Shown piece by piece: positions 17,665 to 27,580 of a stretch of DNA of 64,000 bases. Under the pieces are notes generated by a model. It did not search any database and was not told the DNA's origin. It saw only the letters and a list, made by a program, of their open reading frames with translations. Positions within the stretch are counted from its first letter, which is position 1; every line of letters begins with the position of its first letter. This DNA comes from a bacterium (lineage in GTDB: Bacteria > Hinthialibacterota > Hinthialibacteria > H5-UNCL2), in the NCBI GenBank assembly GCA_015075175.1, contig JABTUV010000002.1, positions 62,001-126,000 on the forward strand, read 5' to 3'. The position numbers were made by a program, and so were the translations under genes.

Positions 17665-17690
17665 CGGCCCCGGGTTTGAGCCCGGGGCCG
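17665..17690 (-). terminator. Perfect 10-bp hairpin, terminator of the SAP-domain gene
   Basis: CGGCCCCGGG-TTTGAG-CCCGGGGCCG: a perfect 10-bp GC-rich stem with a 6-base loop, 12 bp beyond the stop of the minus-strand gene. No long U-run follows on either strand, so termination is likely but not classical. Confidence 0.6.
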
Positions 17691-17701
17691 CCTTGTTGCC
17701 G

Positions 17702-19078
17702 TCAGACTACGGGCAGGAACGCGCCGTTTAACGTGATGTTGCGTTGGATCAGGGCGCGGGCGAGGTCGAGGGTGTCGAACGTGTCGTTGCTGTAGCCGGC
17801 CTCCAGGACCGTGTTGCCGCGGAGGTGCTTTTGGACGTACATGGCCAGGAGCATGTGGCGGAGCAGGTGGTTTTCCAGGATAGGAAACGGGCGGCCAGTC
17901 TCGTGGTTGCCGCCCTTGATCCGGACGAAGCGGTTCTCCCCGAAGTAGTCGTCGAGTTCCGGCGCCTTCTCCTCGTACTGTCTGGCCGCCAAGTGGGCCA
18001 ACTTCTCCACCAGTTCTTCCTTGCGGCCCGTCAGGCTCACGCCGAACCCCCGCAGGACATCCTTGAACGTGTTGACCGCCGCATTCTCCCGCAGGTAGTT
18101 ACCCACGCTGTATCGGTCCACCCGGCAGCCGGGGACGGCGGCCTGCGCCTTGCCGGGCTCGCGCTTCTTGCGGTAGTCAAGTGATGGGAACGCGATGCGG
18201 AACTGCTCGGTCGTCAGCATCTCATCTACCCGGGCGGGCGTGGTCCTGAAGCAGTACTGGCCCCCGCCCGTCCGCCAGCGTTCGGCGATCTCACGAGCCT
18301 TTGAGCGGGTCGAAAGCGCCTTGCCGATGTCGGGATGGAGGTGGATGACGCCTTGCCGGCATTCGCCCTGGTAGAGGATGCTGTCGCGCAGGTAGGTCGT
18401 TTGCGGTGGGTGTACGAGGGTGAAGTTCGGTATGCGGTCCGCCAGTCGCAGGCGGCCCTGTTCGTCCGTCACGCGAAGGAGGAAGTCAGTGGAGCGGAAA
18501 TTGACCACCGGCAGTCCCTCGCGGATGAGGACCTGCTCGTGGTCGGCGAAGTCGTCGAGCGACAGGATTTCGGAGAGGTCGTAGTTGTCGAAGTCGGCGT
18601 AGCCAGAGATCTTGACCCGTTTGTCGCGGGCCTTCACGAACGAGCGCTTGGCGTCGAAGTCGGGATGCGTGGCCCCGAGCAGCGTGTATGCGACCTTGCG
18701 GTCCCACGTTGCGCGCAGGCGCTGCTTGGCCAGGTCGAGGAGTTCGACGTAGGTCAGATGGGAGACGAAACGCACGCCATGATTGAGGTGCTCGACCAAC
18801 TGCTCGAAGGGACTCTTGCCCTGGTAGTAGCGGGCCTGAGTGATGGCGTCGGCGTTTTCGCAGTAGCCGAGTTGCTCGAGGTGGGGAAGTTTGACATCGG
18901 GGGAATTGAGGCGTTCAACGAAGGCCTCTTGGAGCGTCGAGGGATCCTCGAAGTTCCAGATGGGGTGGACGCCCTTCTCGAATACATCGGCCGCGGGGAT
19001 GTCCACACGCCCAACGGCCAACTGCAGGAACCGCGGTACGACCGGGTCCGGCTGGAAACTGAGATGATAGGTCTTCAT
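17702..19078 (-). CDS. Uncharacterised protein with a SAP-type nucleic-acid-binding motif
   Basis: 458 residues from the ATG at 19078, which has AAGGAGT 10 bases upstream. I do not recognise the overall family. Residues about 335-370 read TFKDVLRGFGVSLTGRKEEL and then VEKLAHL, the two-helix SAP pattern (bulky-Gly-turn-GRKxELVxRL) used for DNA or RNA binding. The rest is a mixed, well-formed globular protein with no membrane span, rich in aromatic and charged residues. The N-terminus opens MKTYHLSFQPDPVVPRFLQL. It is near a primase-polymerase gene and an integrase fragment, so a DNA-handling role in an accessory island is a reasonable guess only. Confidence 0.7.
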   Translation of the reverse strand: MKTYHLSFQPDPVVPRFLQLAVGRVDIPAADVFEKGVHPIWNFEDPSTLQEAFVERLNSPDVKLPHLEQLGYCENADAITQARYYQGKSPFEQLVEHLNHGVRFVSHLTYVELLDLAKQRLRATWDRKVAYTLLGATHPDFDAKRSFVKARDKRVKISGYADFDNYDLSEILSLDDFADHEQVLIREGLPVVNFRSTDFLLRVTDEQGRLRLADRIPNFTLVHPPQTTYLRDSILYQGECRQGVIHLHPDIGKALSTRSKAREIAERWRTGGGQYCFRTTPARVDEMLTTEQFRIAFPSLDYRKKREPGKAQAAVPGCRVDRYSVGNYLRENAAVNTFKDVLRGFGVSLTGRKEELVEKLAHLAARQYEEKAPELDDYFGENRFVRIKGGNHETGRPFPILENHLLRHMLLAMYVQKHLRGNTVLEAGYSNDTFDTLDLARALIQRNITLNGAFLPVV

Positions 19079-19274
19079 GGGTATGGTACTCCTTTCGCTA
19101 TCGAAGTGTGGTGGCGCTGCTTGGGCCACCTGCTTGAGTACAGAGGGAAGTCTGGTATTGAAGGAAATTGATCGCAAAGAACGATTGCACAAAATGGGTT
19201 CAGGAGAGCCGCATGAGGATGGCGCGTTCCTTCCACAGGTCCATTGCGTCGGAACGCGGGAACGAACCGCAACG

Positions 19275-20382
19275 TCAATATGTCAACAGTTCGATCAGCA
19301 AGAGAAGATCCTCTGCGTCGACGGTCCCGCTGGCGTTGATGTCGGCCTTGCGCGACGTTTCGTCGCTGCCCTGCCAGTGCAGGGAGAGTTCGAAGAGGTC
19401 CAGGAAGTCGAAGCGCCCGTCCTGCCGCACATCGCCCGGCCCGGCGGGCGTCGGAGTCGGCGTGGGGGCGTTGGGATCGAACTCGTAACAGCCCATGTCC
19501 TCCTGGCGGGGCCACTCGTCACCAACATCCGCGCGACCGTCAATGGGTACCTGACGCCCATCCAAATCCAAAATGGCTATGAGAATCGGTTGCTGATCGA
19601 TGACAGGAGAAAGTGGAGAAAGATGAAAGTCGCCACGCATGGGATCAACAAACAGCGGATCCGACGCGACCAGATTGATAAGCGCCAAATAGTTGCCCCA
19701 GACGCCGCTTTTGACATTCACGCAACTTGCCACGAATTCCAAGTCATTCGTGTTATCGTAGATATCCGCTCCGCGTCGTTTGGCCTCATTACCCCAGACA
19801 ATACACCCATAGTAATAGCCGGAGTTGTGTGCCCCGCCTCCGTCAAGCGACGCAACGTTGCCAGTAATGGTAAGCCTCTTGAGCTTTCCGGACATCGCAA
19901 CTCCGCCGCCAAACATGGCATAATTGCGATACACTAGGCAGGCCTCAGCCAATCCGTGGGGTTGAACGTTGCAGATACCGCCTCCCATGACTTCGGCCGT
20001 GTTGTCGTGGATCTTGCAGTGTCCAATCCAACTGGGATCTTCCGACAGCCCGTAAATGCCACCTCCGGCACTGGCCGCATAATTAGAGTGAATGTCGCAT
20101 TGTGCAATAACTACTTGCGCCCCATTTCCATTGATCCCCCCACCGTTGATGGCGCTGCCGTTTCTAATGGTGAAGCCATACACCCAAGCGGCTACTCCCT
20201 CCTGCCATCTTCCGTTTGTTTCATCGCCGCGGAATGTGACTACGCTGCCCTTGCGGCCGCCGTCAATCACAGTGGACCGAATGACGTCCCAACGAAACAT
20301 TGGCTCACTGCTCCAAGGGTCCACGAGTGAACGTAAGCTCACATTCTTACCATTCATGCCTATGTTCTCGTAGTATATTCTT
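19275..20382 (-). pseudogene. Secreted beta-helix protein with C-terminal dockerin-like module, 5'-truncated
   Basis: The recognisable protein begins abruptly at RIYYENIG (codon at about 20381) and lacks the signal peptide and first turns of the helix. About 370 residues remain. They show beta-helix repeats (SAINGGGINGNGAQ, SAGGGIYG, VMGGGICN, FGGGVAM), the block DPLFVDPMRGDFHLSPLSP seen in choice-of-anchor beta-helix proteins, a TPTPTP linker and two dockerin-like loops (VRQDGRFDFLDLFELSLHW, INASGTVDAEDLLLLIELL). The open frame extends another 57 codons upstream, but those lie in the adjoining inverted-repeat element. The truncation point coincides with the element's end, so the gene was probably cut by its insertion or by a rearrangement. 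Confidence 0.75.
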
Positions 20383-20832
20383 AACCGTCCGGTGAAGTAC
20401 ATCCTGGGGAGGCAGGGGCTGGAGCGGTCGTGGCGCCAGCCGTCATGGAAGCCTGTCAGGTTGAAGATTCGGAATCGTTGAAGGAAAAGGAGGCAGAAGG
20501 AGTCCCGTCGTCGAGCTTCAGCCGTCGATCTGTCCCGCCGCGACAGGAACATGCGGCGTTTCCGGTTTCCAGTGCCCCGCGCAAGAGTTCTTCAATCTGG
20601 CTCTGCAAGTGCGAAGGTATGCGGCCCAGCACGTCGCAGGTAAGCGAAGCGGTTCGATAACCATGCCGCCGACGGGTGACCATCGACGGCTGACCGCGAC
20701 GCCAGGCGGACCTCCTGCACCTCTTGCCTACAACGATTCCTGAACCTTCAATCTGACAGGCTTCCATGACGGTTGGCGCCACGACCGCTCCAGCCCCCTG
20801 CCTTCCCCAGGAAGTACTTCACCGGACGGTTA
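20383..20832. mobile_element. 450-bp MITE-like element with ~150-bp inverted-repeat arms
   Basis: The arms at 20383-20529 and 20681-20832 are reverse complements of each other. The outer ~105 bp (20383-20487 against about 20728-20832) are about 93% identical; the inner parts are more diverged, and about 150 bp of unrelated sequence lies between. Each arm starts TAACCGTCCGGTGAAGTAC. No complete transposase is encoded; frames inside are short. One end abuts the truncated beta-helix gene and the other lies 32 bp before the primase-operon start. It may be a non-autonomous element, the fused ends of a larger one, or a structured RNA locus. Confidence 0.65.
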
Positions 20833-20863
20833 CTACAGGTGAAAGGAGGTAGACGAAACGAAA

Positions 20864-21202
20864 ATGGAGACAGAAAGACAACAAGGCAAGGGGATCGAGT
20901 ATTACGCCGCGTTGTATCGCAGCATCCGAGAGGGGGTTGCCAGTGACGAAGCGGCGCTGGGCATCTTTGCCGGGATGGTGTACGGCATGGCGAACCATTC
21001 GGAGCCAGGAGAGAGGTCGGACCGGCCGGAAGTGAATGGGTATCCGGCAACGGACCGGCAGGTTGCGTACCTGCGAAGGCTGGGCGTGGAACCCAGGGAA
21101 GGCATGAGCAAGGAAGAGACCTCCAGGCTTCTGGATCAGTTGCTGGAGAACCGGCAGGAGGCTGCGGGTTATCAGAGTTTTCCGGCGGAAGCGGTCGAGT
21201 AA
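20864..21202 (+). CDS. Small protein with helical DNA-metabolism-associated motif, partner of the primase
   Basis: 112 residues; AAAGGAGGT lies 13 bases upstream of the ATG. The C-terminal half reads ATDRQVAYLRRLGVEPREGM and then SKEETSRLLDQLLE. This resembles the short ATxKQxxYLxxLG...LTKxxASxLI helical unit found in phage and plasmid replication or recombination proteins. It is followed after 7 bp by the primase-polymerase gene, so the two are co-transcribed. No catalytic motif is seen. Confidence 0.6.
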   Translation: METERQQGKGIEYYAALYRSIREGVASDEAALGIFAGMVYGMANHSEPGERSDRPEVNGYPATDRQVAYLRRLGVEPREGMSKEETSRLLDQLLENRQEAAGYQSFPAEAVE

Positions 21203-21209
21203 GTGAAGC

Positions 21210-22280
21210 ATGGACAGGTTGAGAAGCAGGGTTTCCCGGGCGGAGGGGGTCCGCCTGATGCGGGAGTTGTTCGTCTCGCGGGCGGACGTCTTCGCGGTGC
21301 AGGTGAGGCGGGGAACGGGATGGGGCTATCAACCTGTCCGTCGAAGTTTGACGGACGAGGACCTTCTGGACCATCTGGAGGGGGAGATCACGCTGGGCGT
21401 CTATCCGGCGTTATCGGAGACGCGGTGGCTCTGCATCGACATCGACAGCCGGGACCCGGCGGTCGTGGGTGCGGTAGGGAGCGCGTTCGAGGCGCGGCGT
21501 ATTCCATTCTACCTGGAGGATTCGGGGAACAAGGGCCGGCACGTCTGGGTGTTCTGGGAAAGGCCCCTGGCGAACCGCAAGGCCCGCGAGATCGGCCGGT
21601 CGCTCGGGGCGGAGCATGAGATCTTCCCCAAGCAGGACCGGGTTGTGGAGGGCCGCCTGGGGAGTCTTCTCAAACTTCCCTTGGGGATTCATCGGACTAC
21701 CGGGCGCCGCTGCGTGTTTGTGGACTCGGAGCTGCGGCCTTATGCGGGTCAATTGGCCTTCCTGAAGACGATCAAGCGCGTGGATGGCGAGCGCCTCTGG
21801 AAACGCCTGGGATGCGACATCGGAAGAAAACGGACGCGAACTCAGCCGTTGACGACCGAACCGCTGGTTGAACCGGCAGTCATGCGGCCGTGCGTGCGGC
21901 GGCTGCTCTGCCGGGGTGTGGAGCGTGGCATGAGAAACAGAACCGGGCACGCGATCGCCTCGGAATTGCACCGGGTCGGAGTGGACAAAGAGACTGGGGT
22001 GGGCATCATGGCGGGCTGGAACGCAAGGAACCGACCGCCGCTGCCGTCGGGGGAGTTGGCGGCGGTCCTCGACTCGGCGTATGCGGAGTTGTACCGGTAC
22101 GGGTGCGGGGCGGGGAGCCTCTTGCGTTCGGTATCAAATTGCAGCGGGCCGGAGGATTGCGAGTTCTTTCAGCGACCTGGCGACCCCGAAGGAAAGCGAT
22201 TACCAGTGGTTGGCTCGGACGATCAGGAACAGGCCAAGAAGAGCCGGGATGGCGACCAGGTTGACGGCAAACAACCGTAG
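21210..22280 (+). CDS. Archaeo-eukaryotic primase (PrimPol) superfamily protein with Cys-rich C-terminus
   Basis: 356 residues. The catalytic triad of motifs is present: D77-x-D79 (WLCIDIDS), the histidine H111 in NKGRHVWVFWE, and D143 in EIFPKQDR. The order and surrounding sequence (LTDEDLLDHLEGEITLGVYP, LGSLLKLPLGIHR) match the AEP group seen in TOTE conflict systems and CRISPR- or element-linked primase-polymerases. The C-terminal domain resembles PriCT (GMRNRTGHAIASELHRVG, MAGWNARNRPPLP). Four cysteines (C228, C299, C311, C317) are spaced like a primase Fe-S or zinc site. It should make primers or copy short DNA. No helicase, nuclease or Cas genes adjoin it. Confidence 0.82.
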   Translation: MDRLRSRVSRAEGVRLMRELFVSRADVFAVQVRRGTGWGYQPVRRSLTDEDLLDHLEGEITLGVYPALSETRWLCIDIDSRDPAVVGAVGSAFEARRIPFYLEDSGNKGRHVWVFWERPLANRKAREIGRSLGAEHEIFPKQDRVVEGRLGSLLKLPLGIHRTTGRRCVFVDSELRPYAGQLAFLKTIKRVDGERLWKRLGCDIGRKRTRTQPLTTEPLVEPAVMRPCVRRLLCRGVERGMRNRTGHAIASELHRVGVDKETGVGIMAGWNARNRPPLPSGELAAVLDSAYAELYRYGCGAGSLLRSVSNCSGPEDCEFFQRPGDPEGKRLPVVGSDDQEQAKKSRDGDQVDGKQP

Positions 22281-22394
22281 CGGGTTGATGGGCACGAACG
22301 CTCCCCATTCGCCCCAGCCGGTCCCCTGCGGGGAATGAAGGCGGCCCTCCAGGTTGGCCAGGCGAAACATCCAGATGCCGTTCAGGGCCATCAA
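22200..22394 (-). CDS. Possible small membrane protein or gene fragment
   Basis: A minus-strand frame (extendable without an ATG to about 22460) encodes two hydrophobic segments: LPAWFAATLALMALNGIWMF and LRLFAVNLVAIPALLGLFLI. Between them lies a loop with PQGTGWGEWGAFVPINP. The 3' end overlaps the primase gene's last 80 bases antisense. The residue pattern looks like real membrane coding sequence, but there is no convincing start or ribosome site. It may be the tail of a disrupted gene. Confidence 0.35.
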   Translation of the reverse strand: MMALNGIWMFRLANLEGRLHSPQGTGWGEWGAFVPINPLRLFAVNLVAIPALLGLFLIVRANHW

Positions 22395-22607
22395 CGCGAG
22401 GGTAGCCGCAAACCAGGCCGGAAGACCGTCGAGGTTCTCCTCCCTATTTGCCCCTTGTTCTCCAGGGTAGCTTCATGGTTGACAACGATGCCCTCAAAGC
22501 GAGAAGCTACTGCGGTTAATCGATGTCTTTTGCAGAGGTCGGGCTCTCTTTCATCGTGCTGTCCGAGTTCAATTCCCGCCCTGTGCTCCAGAGGCGCGAA
22601 TTCGCGG

Positions 22608-22613
22608 TATAAT
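22608..22613 (+). promoter_or_regulatory. Candidate -10 box of the triple-FGE gene
   Basis: TATAAT 25 bases before the ATG at 22639. The expected -35 position has no good match, so this is a weak promoter call. Confidence 0.35.
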
Positions 22614-22638
22614 GTGTCCTGCAAGTCGAGGAATGCAT

Positions 22639-25600
22639 ATGAAACGCACATTGCCCTTGCTTCCGGTCTTAATGGTCCTTGTACTCTGGTGCCTTCCCGT
22701 GGCGTACCCCGACGGTCGTATCGATAGCGACGATCTGCTCAACGTGGCCGAGAACTGGCAAAGGACGGGCGGGGGGCCGGGGGACTTCACGGGCGATGGA
22801 GTGGTCGATCAGGCGGATCTCCTGTACATCATTCAGTGCTGGAAGCAAGCCACGAGCCCGACGTCCACGCCGACCTTTACGTTCACTCCCACAGGTACGG
22901 GCACGGATATATCGACCTTTACACCGACGATAACCGCGACATGGACCGGCACGTCCACCCGGACATCCACTCCGACAATCACGCTTACGTCAACGCCAAC
23001 CCCCACGGCCACGCCGGAGGAGATTATCATCGACATCCCGGGACTGCCGGAGGATGCGACTCCGCTCATCCTCGTGCGGATTCCCGCCGGAGAGTTCCTG
23101 ATGGGGCGCTATCCCGGCGAGCAGGACAGCCAGGACTACGAAGACCCGCAGCACTACGTGGACATTGGCTACGACTTCTACATCGGCAAGTACGAAATCA
23201 CCAAGGCGCAATGGGAAGCGATCATGGGCACGACGCCCTGGTCCGGGAAGAATTACATCCTCGACCACCCGGACAGCCCGGCTGTATACGTTTCCTGGAA
23301 TGATATCCGCAACGCTGCGGGCTCGACCGGCTGAACGCGCTCGATGGAATCTTCCGCCTACCAAGTGAAACCGAATGGGAATACGCATGCCGTGCGGGTA
23401 CTCAGACACGCTTCTACTGGGGCGACGACCCGGATGGTATCCACCGCAACGACTATGCCTGGACCTACAGCCACACCGCGAACATCGGCGAGAACTGGGC
23501 CCATGTCGTGGGCCTCAAGTTGCCCAACGCCTTTGGCCTCTTCGATATGAGCGGCAACGTGGCGGAGTGGTGCGAGGATTGGGTGAACGACCGTTACAAT
23601 GGGGCTCCGACTGACGGCAGCCCATGGACAATGGGCAACGGCGCGGGCCGGATCGTGCGTGGTGGGGGTGTTTACGTCGATTTGGATGACGTACGCTCGG
23701 CGGCACGGGCCGCCTACACGCCGGATTCCTATGGCCACCCACTCGGTCTCCGGGTGGTGCGAAGTCTGGAATCGGCAGTCGCCCACGTGGATTCCGCCAC
23801 CATCGGCGCCTTTTTGCCGCCGTCCGTGACGCAGAGGCTCTCCACGTCCAACGGCGGGATGCTGACCGGTTCCGGCACGGGTGCGGTTGGATACCATTGG
23901 ATCACGGAGAAGGATGGTGTGTCCGTGCACGACAGCGGTCCACTCGCCGCGTCGATGGTGGACGGACAGGCGACGCTCCATCTCTACCACGGTTTTCCGA
24001 CCGCGCTTTCCGGACTATACGAGTCCTTCATCCGAATCACCAGCCAATCACCGTACCTGGAATCGCCGAGAGCGAGCTACACGGTGCAGGACACCACGGC
24101 GCTCGTGGGTTACGTCTCGCTGAACGTCTTCTCTCCCCTCACCCAACTCCGGGGCGCGAAAGTCTCGAACAACGGCGCGGTCTACGGCTTCGACCACGGC
24201 CGGGTGGATTACCACTGGACGACTGAGAGAGACGGCGTGGTCGTGCATGACAGCGGGCCTCTCTCGGTGGTCATGAAGTACGGCGCCGCAGCCATCCCTG
24301 CGTACGACGGGTTCCCCACCAACGTGGCAGGACACTACACCTCCCATATCCGAGTCACCAGCCAGTCACCCGAGTGGGTGTCGCTCAACGCGGACTACTC
24401 GGTCATCTCGTTCGAGGGCGAAGGAGTCACTATCGACCTTCCGGGCCTGCCGGCCGACGCCACGCCGCTCGTGCTGGTCAAGATCCCCGCAGGCAGCTTC
24501 ATGATGGGACGATACCCGGGAGAGAACGAAAGCCGCGCGAACGAGGATCCCCAGCACCGGGTAGACATCGGCTACGACTTCTATATCGGCAAGTACGAGA
24601 TCACCAAGGCGCAATGGCAGACCATGATGGGTACCGCGCCTTGGGTGGGCGGCGCAACGTCTACCTCCCTCGTTCCGAATGCTGCGGCGAACTGGATCTC
24701 ATGGAACTCCATCCGGGAGCCGGGTGGATTTCTGGACAAGATTAATGCCCTGGGTCAAGGGATCTTCCGCCTGCCCAGCGAAGCGGAGTGGGAGTACGCC
24801 TGTCGTGCCTGCACCACGACGTCCTATTACTGGGGCGACAGCCCGATGCCGTTGAATGACTATGCGTGGTTCAGACCTCTACCCGGTCTCGGGCCGCAAG
24901 GTGATGAAAGAGACAGTCCGACGGTCGTTGGACTCAAGCTTCCCAATCCCTTCGGACTCTACGACATCATCGGGAACGCGGAGGAATGGTGCGAGGACTG
25001 GTGGAACACCGGCTACCAGGGAGCGCCCACGGATGGAAGCGCGTGGCGGGTGGGCGACGACGGAAACCGGATTGCACGAGGTGGTGGTGTGTTATCCACG
25101 TACTCGGATTGCCGCTCGGCATACCGACACTGGCGGGCTCCGGGAAGCCTCGAATACTGGGATACGGGCGGAAGAGTTTTCGGGTTCCGGATCGTGCGCA
25201 CGGTGGAGTCGGCCACGGCGAACGTGGATTCCGTGTCGGTTGGCTCGTTTGCGCCCCCGGTTCTGAACCAGAGGGATACCACTTCCAACGAAGGCATGTT
25301 GCATGGTCAGGGTACAGGCGCGGTCGGCTACCATTGGCTTACGTACAAGGACGGCCAGTTCTTGCACGACAGCGGCCCGTTTGTCGTCTCGATGGCGGAT
25401 GGACAAGCAACCATTCCGCCGTACGACCTTTTCCCGACGGCTTTGCCAGGCGATTATGAGTCCGTCATTGAAGTAACCAGCCAGTCTCTCCGCCTGCATT
25501 CCGCGACGGCCAGCTATACCGTGCTCCCGACCACCGGTACGGTCGATTCCATCTCGATCAGCCTCTTTTCCCCTCTCACCACGCTGCAGGGCAACCCTGT

Positions 25601-26627
25601 GGCGAACTACGGCAGCTTTTCGGGGTCCGGCCACGGGGCCGTCGAATACCACTGGCTTACCGAGAGGGACGGCGCGTTCGCGCACGACAGCGGCCCGCTC
25701 ACGGTTCAGATGATCGACGGCGAGGCGGATATTCCAACCTACGCAGGTTTCCCCACGGATGCAACCGGCCACTACGAATCGTACATTTGGGTCACCAGTC
25801 AGAAACCGGAAATGGTGTCGCTCACCGCGGATTACTCGGTGATTTCCACGGCAGGTCAGAACGAGATCGTGATCCACCTGCCCGGCCTGCCGGCCGACGC
25901 CACGCCCCTTGTTATGGTCAGAATCCCCGCCGGCAGCTTCATGATGGGAAGGTACCCTTGGGAGGTGGACGCCAATTCGAACGAGGCTCCTCAGCACCGG
26001 GTAGATATCGGTTACGACTTCTACATCGGGAAATACGAAATCACCAAGGCGCAGTGGCAGGCAATCATGGGGACGACGCCGTGGGTGGGCCAGGGCACGG
26101 GCTGGAATATTGGCCCCCAAAGCCCCGCGACCTACGTCTCCTGGGATGATATTCGCGGTGCAAGCGGTTTTCTGGACAAGCTCAACGCTCTCGGACAGGG
26201 AAGGTTCCGGTTGCCCAGCGAGGCGGAGTGGGAATATGCCTGCCGCGCCTGCACCCCGACGCGCTACTATTGGGGCGATGATCCAGGCGACAAGCACGTC
26301 GGCGCATACGCGTGGTACGTCGGGAACCATTTCGAGGACGGTGAGTTTGGACCGCACAACGTGGGACAGAAGATCCCCAATAATTTTGCACTCTTCGACA
26401 TGAGCGGCAATGTTGCAGAATGGTGCGAGGATTGGTGGAACCGCAATTATCAGAACGCACCCGCGGATGGAAGCGCCTGGACATCCGAGACTCTACGAAA
26501 CATGTATCGGGAGGATTCTTCACGATATCGCCAGCCTTGGTCGATCCGCAAGGCGCCTGACAGCAGCAGTGGATCCCCTTCCTCGGCTGGCAGGCTTCCG
26601 TGCGTCGTGCTTTCTGTTATACAGTAA
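22639..26627 (+). CDS. Giant secreted protein with dockerin-like module and three FGE/sulfatase-modifying-factor domains (frameshifted)
   Basis: About 1,330 residues if one missing base is restored near 23320 (GGGG read as GGG). Start ATG at 22639 with GAGGA upstream. Order: signal peptide; two dockerin-like loops (DGRIDSDDLLNVAENW, DGVVDQADLLYIIQCW); a Thr/Pro-rich linker; FGE-like domain 1; paired beta-sandwich repeats; FGE domain 2; two more repeats; FGE domain 3. Each FGE unit opens I-PGLP-DATPL and has RIPAG-F-MGRYP, GYDFYIGKYEITKAQW, FRLPSE-EWEYACRA and GNVAEWCEDW. The third unit ends in scrambled sequence, suggesting further indels. Such domains on surface proteins are usually binding or structural C-type-lectin-like folds, not active FGE. 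Confidence 0.8.
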
Positions 26628-26653
26628 TTACGTGAATATCTGCTCCAACCTGA

Positions 26654-27343
26654 AGGTGTCCAACAGTAAAAGGGAGACTTCGTCTGTACGACGAGGAATA
26701 CGGAAATCCCGTGTTGGAAGTCCATCGGGTACTCGACTTCCTGGAGTGGCTGGTGGCCAACAAGAAATGGAACTACCTTGCCGCCGGCGTGGCCCTCCAG
26801 GGACTCGCCGGGCTTCAACTGCAGGAGGCCTTGAGGCTCCGTTGGGGAAACGTGGACTTCGACAACTGCACGATCACCATCGAGGGTGAAGTCAAGAACC
26901 GGTATCGCATTCGCCGGATACCGGTGTGCAGCGTGGTCCTCTGGCTGCTGAAGTGGCATCGGCGCAGTTTCGAGGTCAGGACTCCCAACAACAACAGGGT
27001 GCTCCGCCACTACCAGCGCTACGAGGGCTATTCGGATGCGGTCAGGAAGGCGCTTGCACTTTGGGACCCCAAGGTTGTGCTCAAGCCCAAGGATCTGCGC
27101 AATACCCTGCAGACCGCCGCCATTGACGGTGGGTGGTACGACTACTACCTCAAGCGCTATGTTGGCCACGCGCCGACCACGATTGGCGAGAAGCACTATT
27201 TCGGAGATCAGGGCAGGCGCCTCACCCCGCTGTTTCAGGAGAAGGTGGTGAAGAACATCGAGGTCGAAATTTCGACCTGGGAAGCGCCGGAACCCTCACT
27301 GATCCTTCCCGGACCTCGGTTGGTCAAGAGGCAGGAAGCTTGA
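26654..27343 (+). pseudogene. Degenerate tyrosine-recombinase (integrase) C-terminal fragment
   Basis: The frame starts right after a stop at 26651 and has no N-terminal core-binding domain; a coding-like upstream phrase (NLKVSNSK) lies in another frame, implying truncation plus an indel. The catalytic region is recognisable: GLAGLQLQEALRLRWGNVD (box I, but the catalytic Arg is Gln), EVKNRYRIRRIPV (beta-hairpin Lys present), KDLRNTLQT (box II Arg present, His replaced by Lys), YVGHAPTT (His present) and HYFG (nucleophile Tyr). It lies 160 bp from the 3' end of tRNA-Gln, where an integrase would be expected. The Gln may be normal for this subfamily, which I recall from planctomycete-type genomes, so inactivity is not certain. 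Confidence 0.65.
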
Positions 27344-27402
27344 CGGCCGATGCTAACGCAGCATGGTTTGGGGGCCTCATGCCGCCCCTGGTGCCGATTC
27401 GC

Positions 27403-27430
27403 ATTGCACGAATTGCACGAGGTTGCACGA
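27403..27430 (+). repeat. Three direct repeats of TTGCACGA
   Basis: ATTGCACGA at 27403-27411 and 27412-27420, then TTGCACGA at 27423-27430, i.e. 9- and 10-bp spacing. They lie between the integrase fragment and the 3' end of tRNA-Gln, where arm-type recombinase or excisionase sites usually are. Confidence 0.55.
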
Positions 27431-27504
27431 AAAGCGGGGCTTAGGGGTTCCGTAAGTGGTTTCTGGAAAATGGCGAAAGAGGCTGTAATTGCATAACTTG
27501 CGAG

Positions 27505-27580
27505 TGGCTGGGGAGGAAGGATTCGAACCTTCGGCCTCCTGATCCAGAGTCAGGCGTTTTACCAACTCAACTACTCCCCA
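27505..27580 (-). tRNA. tRNA-Gln (anticodon CTG)
   Basis: A 76-nt complete cloverleaf on the minus strand: acceptor TGGGGAG/CTCCCCA, D-arm GTTG...AAAC, anticodon stem CCTGA/TCAGG with loop CTCTGGA (anticodon CTG reads CAG), and T-arm GAAGG-TTCGAAT-CCTTC. Discriminator G and encoded CCA are present. Its 3' end faces the integrase fragment on the left, making it a likely integration target. Confidence 0.95.

Follow-up and report, generated by a model that had tools for sequence, protein, structure and literature searches.

In bacterial chromosomes, archaeo-eukaryotic primases (AEPs) are found within integrated elements, for which tRNA genes are a frequent site (PMC5862659), and primase-bearing, tRNA-integrating elements as such are already known. 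Those of the PrimPol-PV1 supergroup (Kazlauskas et al. 2018, PMC5862659) combine an AEP and a PriCT-type domain with an integrase, are integrated at tRNAs and include conjugative or mobilizable as well as cryptic members. The actinomycete integrative and conjugative elements (AICEs) pSAM2 and SLP1 have a tyrosine integrase at a tRNA, a Prim-Pol plus a replication gene, a single DNA-pump ATPase and no recognised relaxase of a type IV secretion system (PMC3218068), and the integrative element ICETh2 of Thermus thermophilus carries the PrimPol Ppol (PMC7693054). These traits recur in the elements described here. We analysed a stretch of 64,000 nucleotides (the window, G000:C12:62001-126000) from the 4.98-Mb draft genome G000 of an uncultured bacterium, whose class was sampled with 14 genomes. 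An island between a GH28 gene and tRNA-Gln of this window carries an AEP-type primase-polymerase (PrimPol), a SAP-domain protein and a degenerate integrase.

The original prediction of a mobile-element island at a tRNA was borne out, and the SAP protein, inverted repeat, small protein, AEP, integrase remnant and tRNA-Gln are all present. We favor the view, with a probability of about 0.82, that the island, probably a composite, is what decay has left of one or more mobile elements of a tRNA-integrating kind, whose relatives carry PrimPol, SAP and coupling-ATPase genes. The order in intact relatives is (Orc1/Cdc6, ArdC, GP88), metallopeptidase/VWA, MoxR, SAP, (cargo), Lon-like protein, coupling ATPase, a protein of ~200 aa, PrimPol, (ParA/excisionase), tyrosine integrase, tRNA. 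In the window the corresponding features are:

17702-19078, minus strand: SAP-domain protein, 458 aa, a solo copy of the third gene of an operon
21210-22280, plus strand: PrimPol, 356 aa, with AEP domain (residues 7-205) and PriX/PriL-like helical domain (225-311) with four cysteines
26711-27343, plus strand: tyrosine integrase remnant, 210 aa, catalytic C-terminal half only (PF00589, 1.4e-6)
27505-27580, minus strand: tRNA-Gln (CTG; ARAGORN, Rfam RF00005), its 3' end facing the integrase
27504-27545, minus strand: att-like core of 42 bp in the 3' half of tRNA-Gln, with a perfect copy at C46:119491-119532 (another contig of the genome) that lacks the full tRNA

The PrimPol was matched by Pfam AEP-TOTE with E 1.5e-34 and weakly by PriCT_1; NCBIfam PrimPol_Msp gave 147.7 bits, below its cutoff of 200. 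As predicted, the catalytic motifs I (DhD, D77/D79), II (sxH, H111) and III (hD, D172) are all present, which places the protein in the AEP superfamily; D172 is substituted in some distant relatives. The four predicted C-terminal cysteines are C228, C299, C311 and C317; C228 and C299 do not vary among 17 relatives. An AlphaFold model from 17 sequences, with a predicted local distance difference test score (pLDDT) of at least 88 for each block of ten residues between 11 and 200, matched the Prim-Pol domain of CAPP (7nqe) with a Z of 25.7, a root-mean-square deviation of 1.7 over 192 residues and 32% identity. The C-terminal helices of the model matched PriX (4wyh) with a Z of 8.8 over 84 residues, indicating a PriX/PriL-type fold, which agrees with the published kinship of PriCT domains to PriL and PriX (PMC5862659). 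The conserved four-cysteine pattern resembles that of PriL Fe-S domains. Because the last ~25 residues read antisense through the adjoining membrane-protein gene, they are probably outside the fold.

Catalytic fold and sequence, as well as a PriCT-type C-terminus with conserved cysteines, are thus shared with CAPP (PMC8211822; PDB 7nqe). Unlike CAPP, the PrimPol here has neither the TPR region nor Cas1, Cas2 or Argonaute neighbours, and the family is accompanied by a DNA pump and an integrase. No cas gene was noted in the searches made of the window island and of the fetched single-domain PrimPol loci, and a role in CRISPR adaptation was dropped for that reason. The 356-aa protein has no fused helicase or nuclease, and neither lies beside it in the window, which separates it from TOTE systems. 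The earlier assignment to an AEP of the TOTE/CRISPR-PrimPol type without helicase, nuclease or Cas1 partners therefore stands.

An alignment of the PrimPol used as query led to 71 genome loci; single-sequence searches of genome contigs and viral contigs gave no matches, so that alignment queries were needed, and plasmids and phages contained distant AEP matches only (~35% identity or less). Neighbours were counted within the fetched flanks of 18 single-domain PrimPol loci and of 28 loci with long PrimPols (490-900 aa, mostly Desulfobacterota). The single-domain enzymes, a widespread set to which the window PrimPol belongs, combine the CRISPR-PrimPol-like catalytic domain with the four-cysteine PriX/PriL-like one. 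Their loci form an array of coupling ATPase, ~200-aa protein, PrimPol, tyrosine integrase and tRNA: coupling ATPase and integrase were each found at 12 of the 18, at least one of them at 16, and the remaining two are contigs under 5 kb. At the long-PrimPol loci both were absent (0/28 each). The coupling ATPase of the relatives is of the TraG/TrwB/HerA type, i.e. a DNA-transfer ATPase. In a phylogenetic tree the window PrimPol clusters with the element PrimPols of C46, G007 and G309 (support 99/95). The data suggest that the family spans integrative elements across several phyla and that some relatives of CRISPR-type primase-polymerases act as primases of such elements.

These elements differ from the PrimPol-PV1 supergroup (PMC5862659), whose catalytic domains belong to PolpTN2 families, in that the domain here is nearest to CAPP and AEP-TOTE and that a TraG/TrwB-type ATPase recurs, together with a MoxR-VWA-SAP operon and, in several, Orc1/Cdc6. 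Compared to AICEs (PMC3218068) the pump is TraG/TrwB/HerA-like instead of FtsK/SpoIIIE-like, no RepSA or RepAM was seen, the Prim-Pol family is not the PF09250 found there, and the phyla differ. As side observations, GrpE-like and Hsp70-like genes lie behind the element PrimPol of G006 (L038:6891-9078), and an Hsp70 gene is also near the PrimPol of L069. The contig of the L089 element PrimPol is short and carries the label Methanosarcinaceae archaeon; the tree position of this PrimPol beside Planctomycetota suggests transfer or mis-binning.

An integrase within ~170 bp of a tRNA or overlapping it, always in one orientation, is found in the window (Gln) and in seven relatives (L068 Pro, L078 Arg, L080 Lys, L090 Asp, L096 Glu, L105 Arg, L035 Pro). 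Where a locus includes the integrase end, a tRNA on the other strand frequently lies directly against it, matching the window layout. The predicted degenerate integrase beside tRNA-Gln is real and consists of the C-terminal half. The tRNA-Gln half-copy at C46:119491-119532 behaves as an attachment-site copy would, and we infer that tRNA-Gln was the integration target of the element. On C46, the end of the integrase behind the second PrimPol overlaps one of the tRNA-derived 45-bp direct repeats at C46:48406, 59678 and 69280. Two of these are identical and one is inside an 85% match of 189 bp; the spacing of ~11 and ~10 kb points to a tandem accretion of elements. The L035 region also contains a Type V-B CRISPR-Cas locus (L035:4272-9971, C46:84-90k; Cas12b with PADLOC 7e-158, a Cas4-Cas1 fusion, array at ~C46:80-83k), which adjoins the same truncated integrase family, an IS66 end and tRNA-Pro.

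In the SAP protein, Pfam SAP matched residues 339-362 weakly (E 0.0024; 17.9 bits, below the gathering cutoff of 23.9), while among its homologs one reached E 1.3e-4 and that of L231 22.0 bits (cutoff 23.9). Positions 327-379 matched the 'thyroid autoantigen' (Ku70) chain 1jjr with E 0.018. A single-sequence AlphaFold model was uninformative (pLDDT 34). Profile searches found homologs in 3 of 385 other genomes, in 7 of 68 Hydrogenedentota and in Pontiella; there was no match in plasmids, phages or viral contigs. The order metallopeptidase/VWA, MoxR, SAP was seen in 11 loci of 8 genomes. A 73% identical paralog in the same genome (C46:21824-23200) lies directly behind MoxR and starts within the MoxR stop codon with a 4-bp overlap. 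The metallopeptidase/VWA protein has an HExxH motif and is DUF2201-like, and MoxR matched the bpMoxR model with 7e-6, below the cutoff. A GP88 gene precedes the operon in seven loci, and some copies have HerA ATPase and Replic_Relax genes in their vicinity, a setting like that of plasmids or integrative elements. The conserved partners of the SAP protein are MoxR and the metallopeptidase/VWA protein. PADLOC had no match for SAP, MoxR or VWA, no published description of MoxR with SAP or of DUF2201 with MoxR was found in the literature library searched, and the operon looks undescribed. The MoxR-vWA ternary conflict systems (PMC7159879) likewise combine a MoxR ATPase with a vWA protein and with a third component that is conserved. 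Yet here the vWA protein is a DUF2201-type metallopeptidase-VWA fusion, the third protein has a SAP domain instead of VMAP, iSTAND, FtsH or a beta-propeller, and no effector domains were seen, which sets the operon apart from that class.

SAP operon and PrimPol meet in three Hydrogenedentota genomes (G431:C134, G442:C37, G290:C6), where the operon lies 14-27 kb upstream of PrimPol on one strand and in one order. G431:C134 contains contiguously VWA-MoxR-SAP (168-173k), the Lon-like gene (180k), ATPase (183k), PrimPol (187k), integrase (189k) and tRNA-Met (190k). This order recurs in G442:C37 with its own integrase and tRNA-Met, and in G290:C6 up to PrimPol, integrase and tRNA not being found within the stretch read. 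In the genome of the window itself SAP, small protein and PrimPol are together at C46:21.8-25.4k. Among Hydrogenedentota genomes five had both genes, two SAP only, three PrimPol only and 58 neither (Fisher p = 1e-4), i.e. PrimPol was present in 5/7 SAP-positive and 3/61 SAP-negative genomes; the broad sample without G000 gave 2, 1, 4 and 378, respectively (p = 6e-4), and both p values ignore shared ancestry and depend on a PrimPol cut-off chosen after the scores were seen. PrimPol without SAP occurred in G004, G006, G007, G153 and Desulfocarbo. Thus a strict module, in which PrimPol never occurs without its neighbours, fails, while the idea that the genes belong to the same element stands because they co-occur elsewhere. 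That SAP and PrimPol belong together in some way, as originally suggested, is supported by the co-occurrence and the shared strand and contig in G431, G442 and G290; on the other hand, the direct partners of SAP are MoxR and the metallopeptidase/VWA protein. SAP, PrimPol and integrase are genuinely linked, though not directly.

Near the far end of the elements of G431, G442 and G290 lie ArdC and an Orc1/Cdc6 initiator (PDB 2qby, E 5e-48; Pfam Cdc6_C, 1.7e-22). Orc1/Cdc6 proteins with a Cdc6_C winged helix were found in bacterial draft genomes, in or near PrimPol elements, at:

L302:7324-8586 (G431:C134)
L308:13119-14429 (G442:C37)
L258:3906-5348 (G290:C6)
L260:11310-12500 (G309)
L071:3-1160 (Phycisphaerae)

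No published account of bacterial elements with Cdc6 and PrimPol was seen in the literature searches made. These archaeal-type initiators in bacterial elements and the conserved VWA-MoxR-SAP operon are what is notable in the relatives. An Orc1/Cdc6-like AAA protein is also encoded at L007:4424-5512 on C46, upstream of a HerA/VWA/MoxR/SAP region (1.6e-21 with a hidden Markov model of our own; Pfam ORC-CDC6-like 4e-5, below cutoff).

From the GH28 gene to tRNA-Gln the island reads SAP, truncated beta-helix/dockerin gene, inverted-repeat piece, 112-aa protein, AEP, dockerin/FGE gene and integrase C-terminus. The remaining features are:

19275-20381, minus strand: secreted beta-helix and dockerin protein (Pfam Dockerin_1 8e-7, Beta_helix 1.4e-5), its 5' part lost at the IS66 boundary at 20382
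20382-20833, no strand assigned: inverted pair of IS66-family terminal fragments (transposase C-terminus) with arms 20382-20470 and 20742-20832
20864-21202, plus strand: small protein, 112 aa, no family match, upstream of PrimPol
22203-22445, minus strand: antisense remnant of a membrane-protein gene (tblastn 77% over residues 46-126), overlapping the PrimPol 3' end
22612-26627, plus strand: secreted dockerin and FGE/SUMF1-repeat protein, frameshifted (PF03781 3e-93, Dockerin 4e-5), between PrimPol and integrase

The inverted-repeat piece had been taken for a 450-bp element. It exists, with arms that are 95-97% complementary, but it is not an element of its own. It has 24 matches within the genome, and its other copies extend into transposase genes; the C-terminus of a full IS66 open reading frame with the same end (L042:5000-6583, 527 aa, PF03050 5e-100) matches it. 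The piece consists of two IS66-family ends in inverted orientation, and the copies running into IS66 transposase genes rule out a miniature inverted-repeat transposable element, i.e. a short non-autonomous element with terminal repeats of its own. The beta-helix/dockerin gene is probably a host gene. The dockerin/FGE gene, with three repeats and a DNA-level homolog on contig C49 (L044:9230-11200), looks like one.

C46 holds further copies of the island genes. An intact PrimPol paralog with 51% identity (C46:41560-42582) is followed by genes for a vWA protein, Tubulin_2 (tubulin-like), an excisionase-type HTH_17 protein and the integrase (L006:2399-8516, C46:42.4-48.5k). An internally deleted PrimPol copy (C46:25059-25446) lies behind a 43% identical paralog of the small protein (C46:24724-25041) and ~1.9 kb behind the 73% SAP paralog, with the same membrane-protein gene following (C46:25375-25752). 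A bare tail of the small protein is found at C46:41477 before the third PrimPol copy. For SAP, PrimPol and the small protein the ratios of nonsynonymous to synonymous substitution rates (dN/dS) are 0.20, 0.14 (with saturated synonymous sites) and 0.28, respectively, and imply that the genes were maintained through most of their divergence; to judge from these ratios, PrimPol and SAP are kept under purifying selection. Adjoining the deleted PrimPol, genes for a ClpA-like AAA ATPase, ThiF/E1, JAB-like and E2-like proteins and a repeat peptide (L005:5754-10400, C46:25.7-30.4k) look like a ubiquitin-like conjugation cluster.

Several observations weigh against the reading of the island as a remnant of such elements. 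The window contains no coupling ATPase, Lon, Cdc6, MoxR, VWA or excisionase, and its SAP gene is inverted relative to PrimPol. A second att copy was not found on the window's own contig, the sole copy being on another one, and no delimiting direct repeats were found at the left ends of the G431 and G442 elements. Neither a relaxase nor VirB4 was recognised in the scanned proteins of the relatives, where a fast-evolving one could escape, which makes self-transfer putative. The integrase remnant is 56% identical to an intact integrase of 447 aa that L039/L105 have beside tRNA-Arg, and this enzyme is a closer relative of it than the integrase found with the nearest PrimPol paralog (C46:46954). 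The island is therefore probably composite with more than one insertion at tRNA-Gln, and PrimPol and integrase of the window may stem from different elements at one tRNA. Finally, the PrimPol of ICETh2, which has a helicase with it, was not required for the element to replicate and counteracted DNA entering the cell, limiting its uptake (PMC7693054).

The mismatched integrase, IS66 fragments and host dockerin genes would also fit unrelated genes that gathered by chance at an insertion hotspot, the SAP-PrimPol link being hitch-hiking in genomes rich in mobile DNA. In G241, G439 and G441 the SAP operon indeed occurs with HerA/Replic_Relax and without PrimPol, and in Pontiella SAP and PrimPol are ~500 kb apart. 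Yet a pile-up does not account well for a gene order kept on one strand across 14-27 kb in G431, G442 and G290, nor for a set of SAP, small protein, PrimPol and membrane gene common to two islands of the genome, and we consider it unlikely. The ICETh2 result leaves room for a defence module, in which the PrimPol interferes with phage or other DNA like its TOTE or CRISPR counterparts and SAP, MoxR and VWA are additional conflict genes on the island. Its nearest named families, AEP-TOTE and CAPP, the place of MoxR-vWA couples at the core of conflict systems (PMC7159879) and the Cas12b and ubiquitin-like clusters on islands of the same genome point this way. However, among the neighbours of the single-domain PrimPols examined, none was noted as a helicase, nuclease, Cas1, Cas2 or Argonaute; the conserved ones are coupling ATPase and integrase. 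The PADLOC result for SAP, MoxR and VWA was negative. A defence module appears somewhat less likely still than a chance assembly. The minimal replication or defence unit of small protein and PrimPol, perhaps with SAP, that was originally envisaged is largely refuted and highly improbable. The small protein precedes PrimPol at two loci of the genome and its tail at a third, SAP is within 2 kb at two of these, and all three genes show selection. Outside this genome, however, no relative of the small protein was found in the 13 other genomes of the class or in ~50 PrimPol loci, so that the pair is not a conserved core; moreover, just its tail is left before the intact C46 PrimPol, and the conserved partners of SAP are others.

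If the island is such a remnant, the integrase would have inserted a circular form of the element by recombination at the 3' end of tRNA-Gln. Once the element was excised, the PrimPol most likely primed the copying of single-stranded element DNA, as fold and context suggest, and its cysteine-bearing PriX/PriL-like domain may have aided primer initiation. Where present, the Orc1/Cdc6-type initiator would have opened the origin, and the coupling ATPase would have carried the DNA into new cells. MoxR and the metallopeptidase/VWA protein may form a remodelling machine that is brought to DNA by the SAP protein; a DNA-targeted remodelling complex is the simplest reading of the operon. In the window MoxR, VWA, the pump and half of the integrase were presumably lost, leaving PrimPol and SAP solo, and the IS66 piece and host genes appear to break up what remained.

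Taken together, the analysis connects three orphan-looking genes of an uncultured bacterium with integrative elements of one family that occurs in several phyla. With the VWA-MoxR-SAP operon, the SAP protein has specific partners that can be tested, and bacterial elements with archaeal-type replication initiators are indicated. Tentatively, as an idea that may well prove wrong, we propose tRNA-integrating elements with an archaeal-style kit of Orc1/Cdc6, CAPP-like AEP and PriX/PriL-like domain, which would be independent of host DnaA and DnaG and would use the metallopeptidase/VWA-MoxR-SAP operon for maintenance or for conflict with rivals. Cultured hosts open the way to experiments: Desulfocarbo indianensis, which has the PrimPol array, and Pontiella sulfatireligans with PrimPol and the SAP operon.

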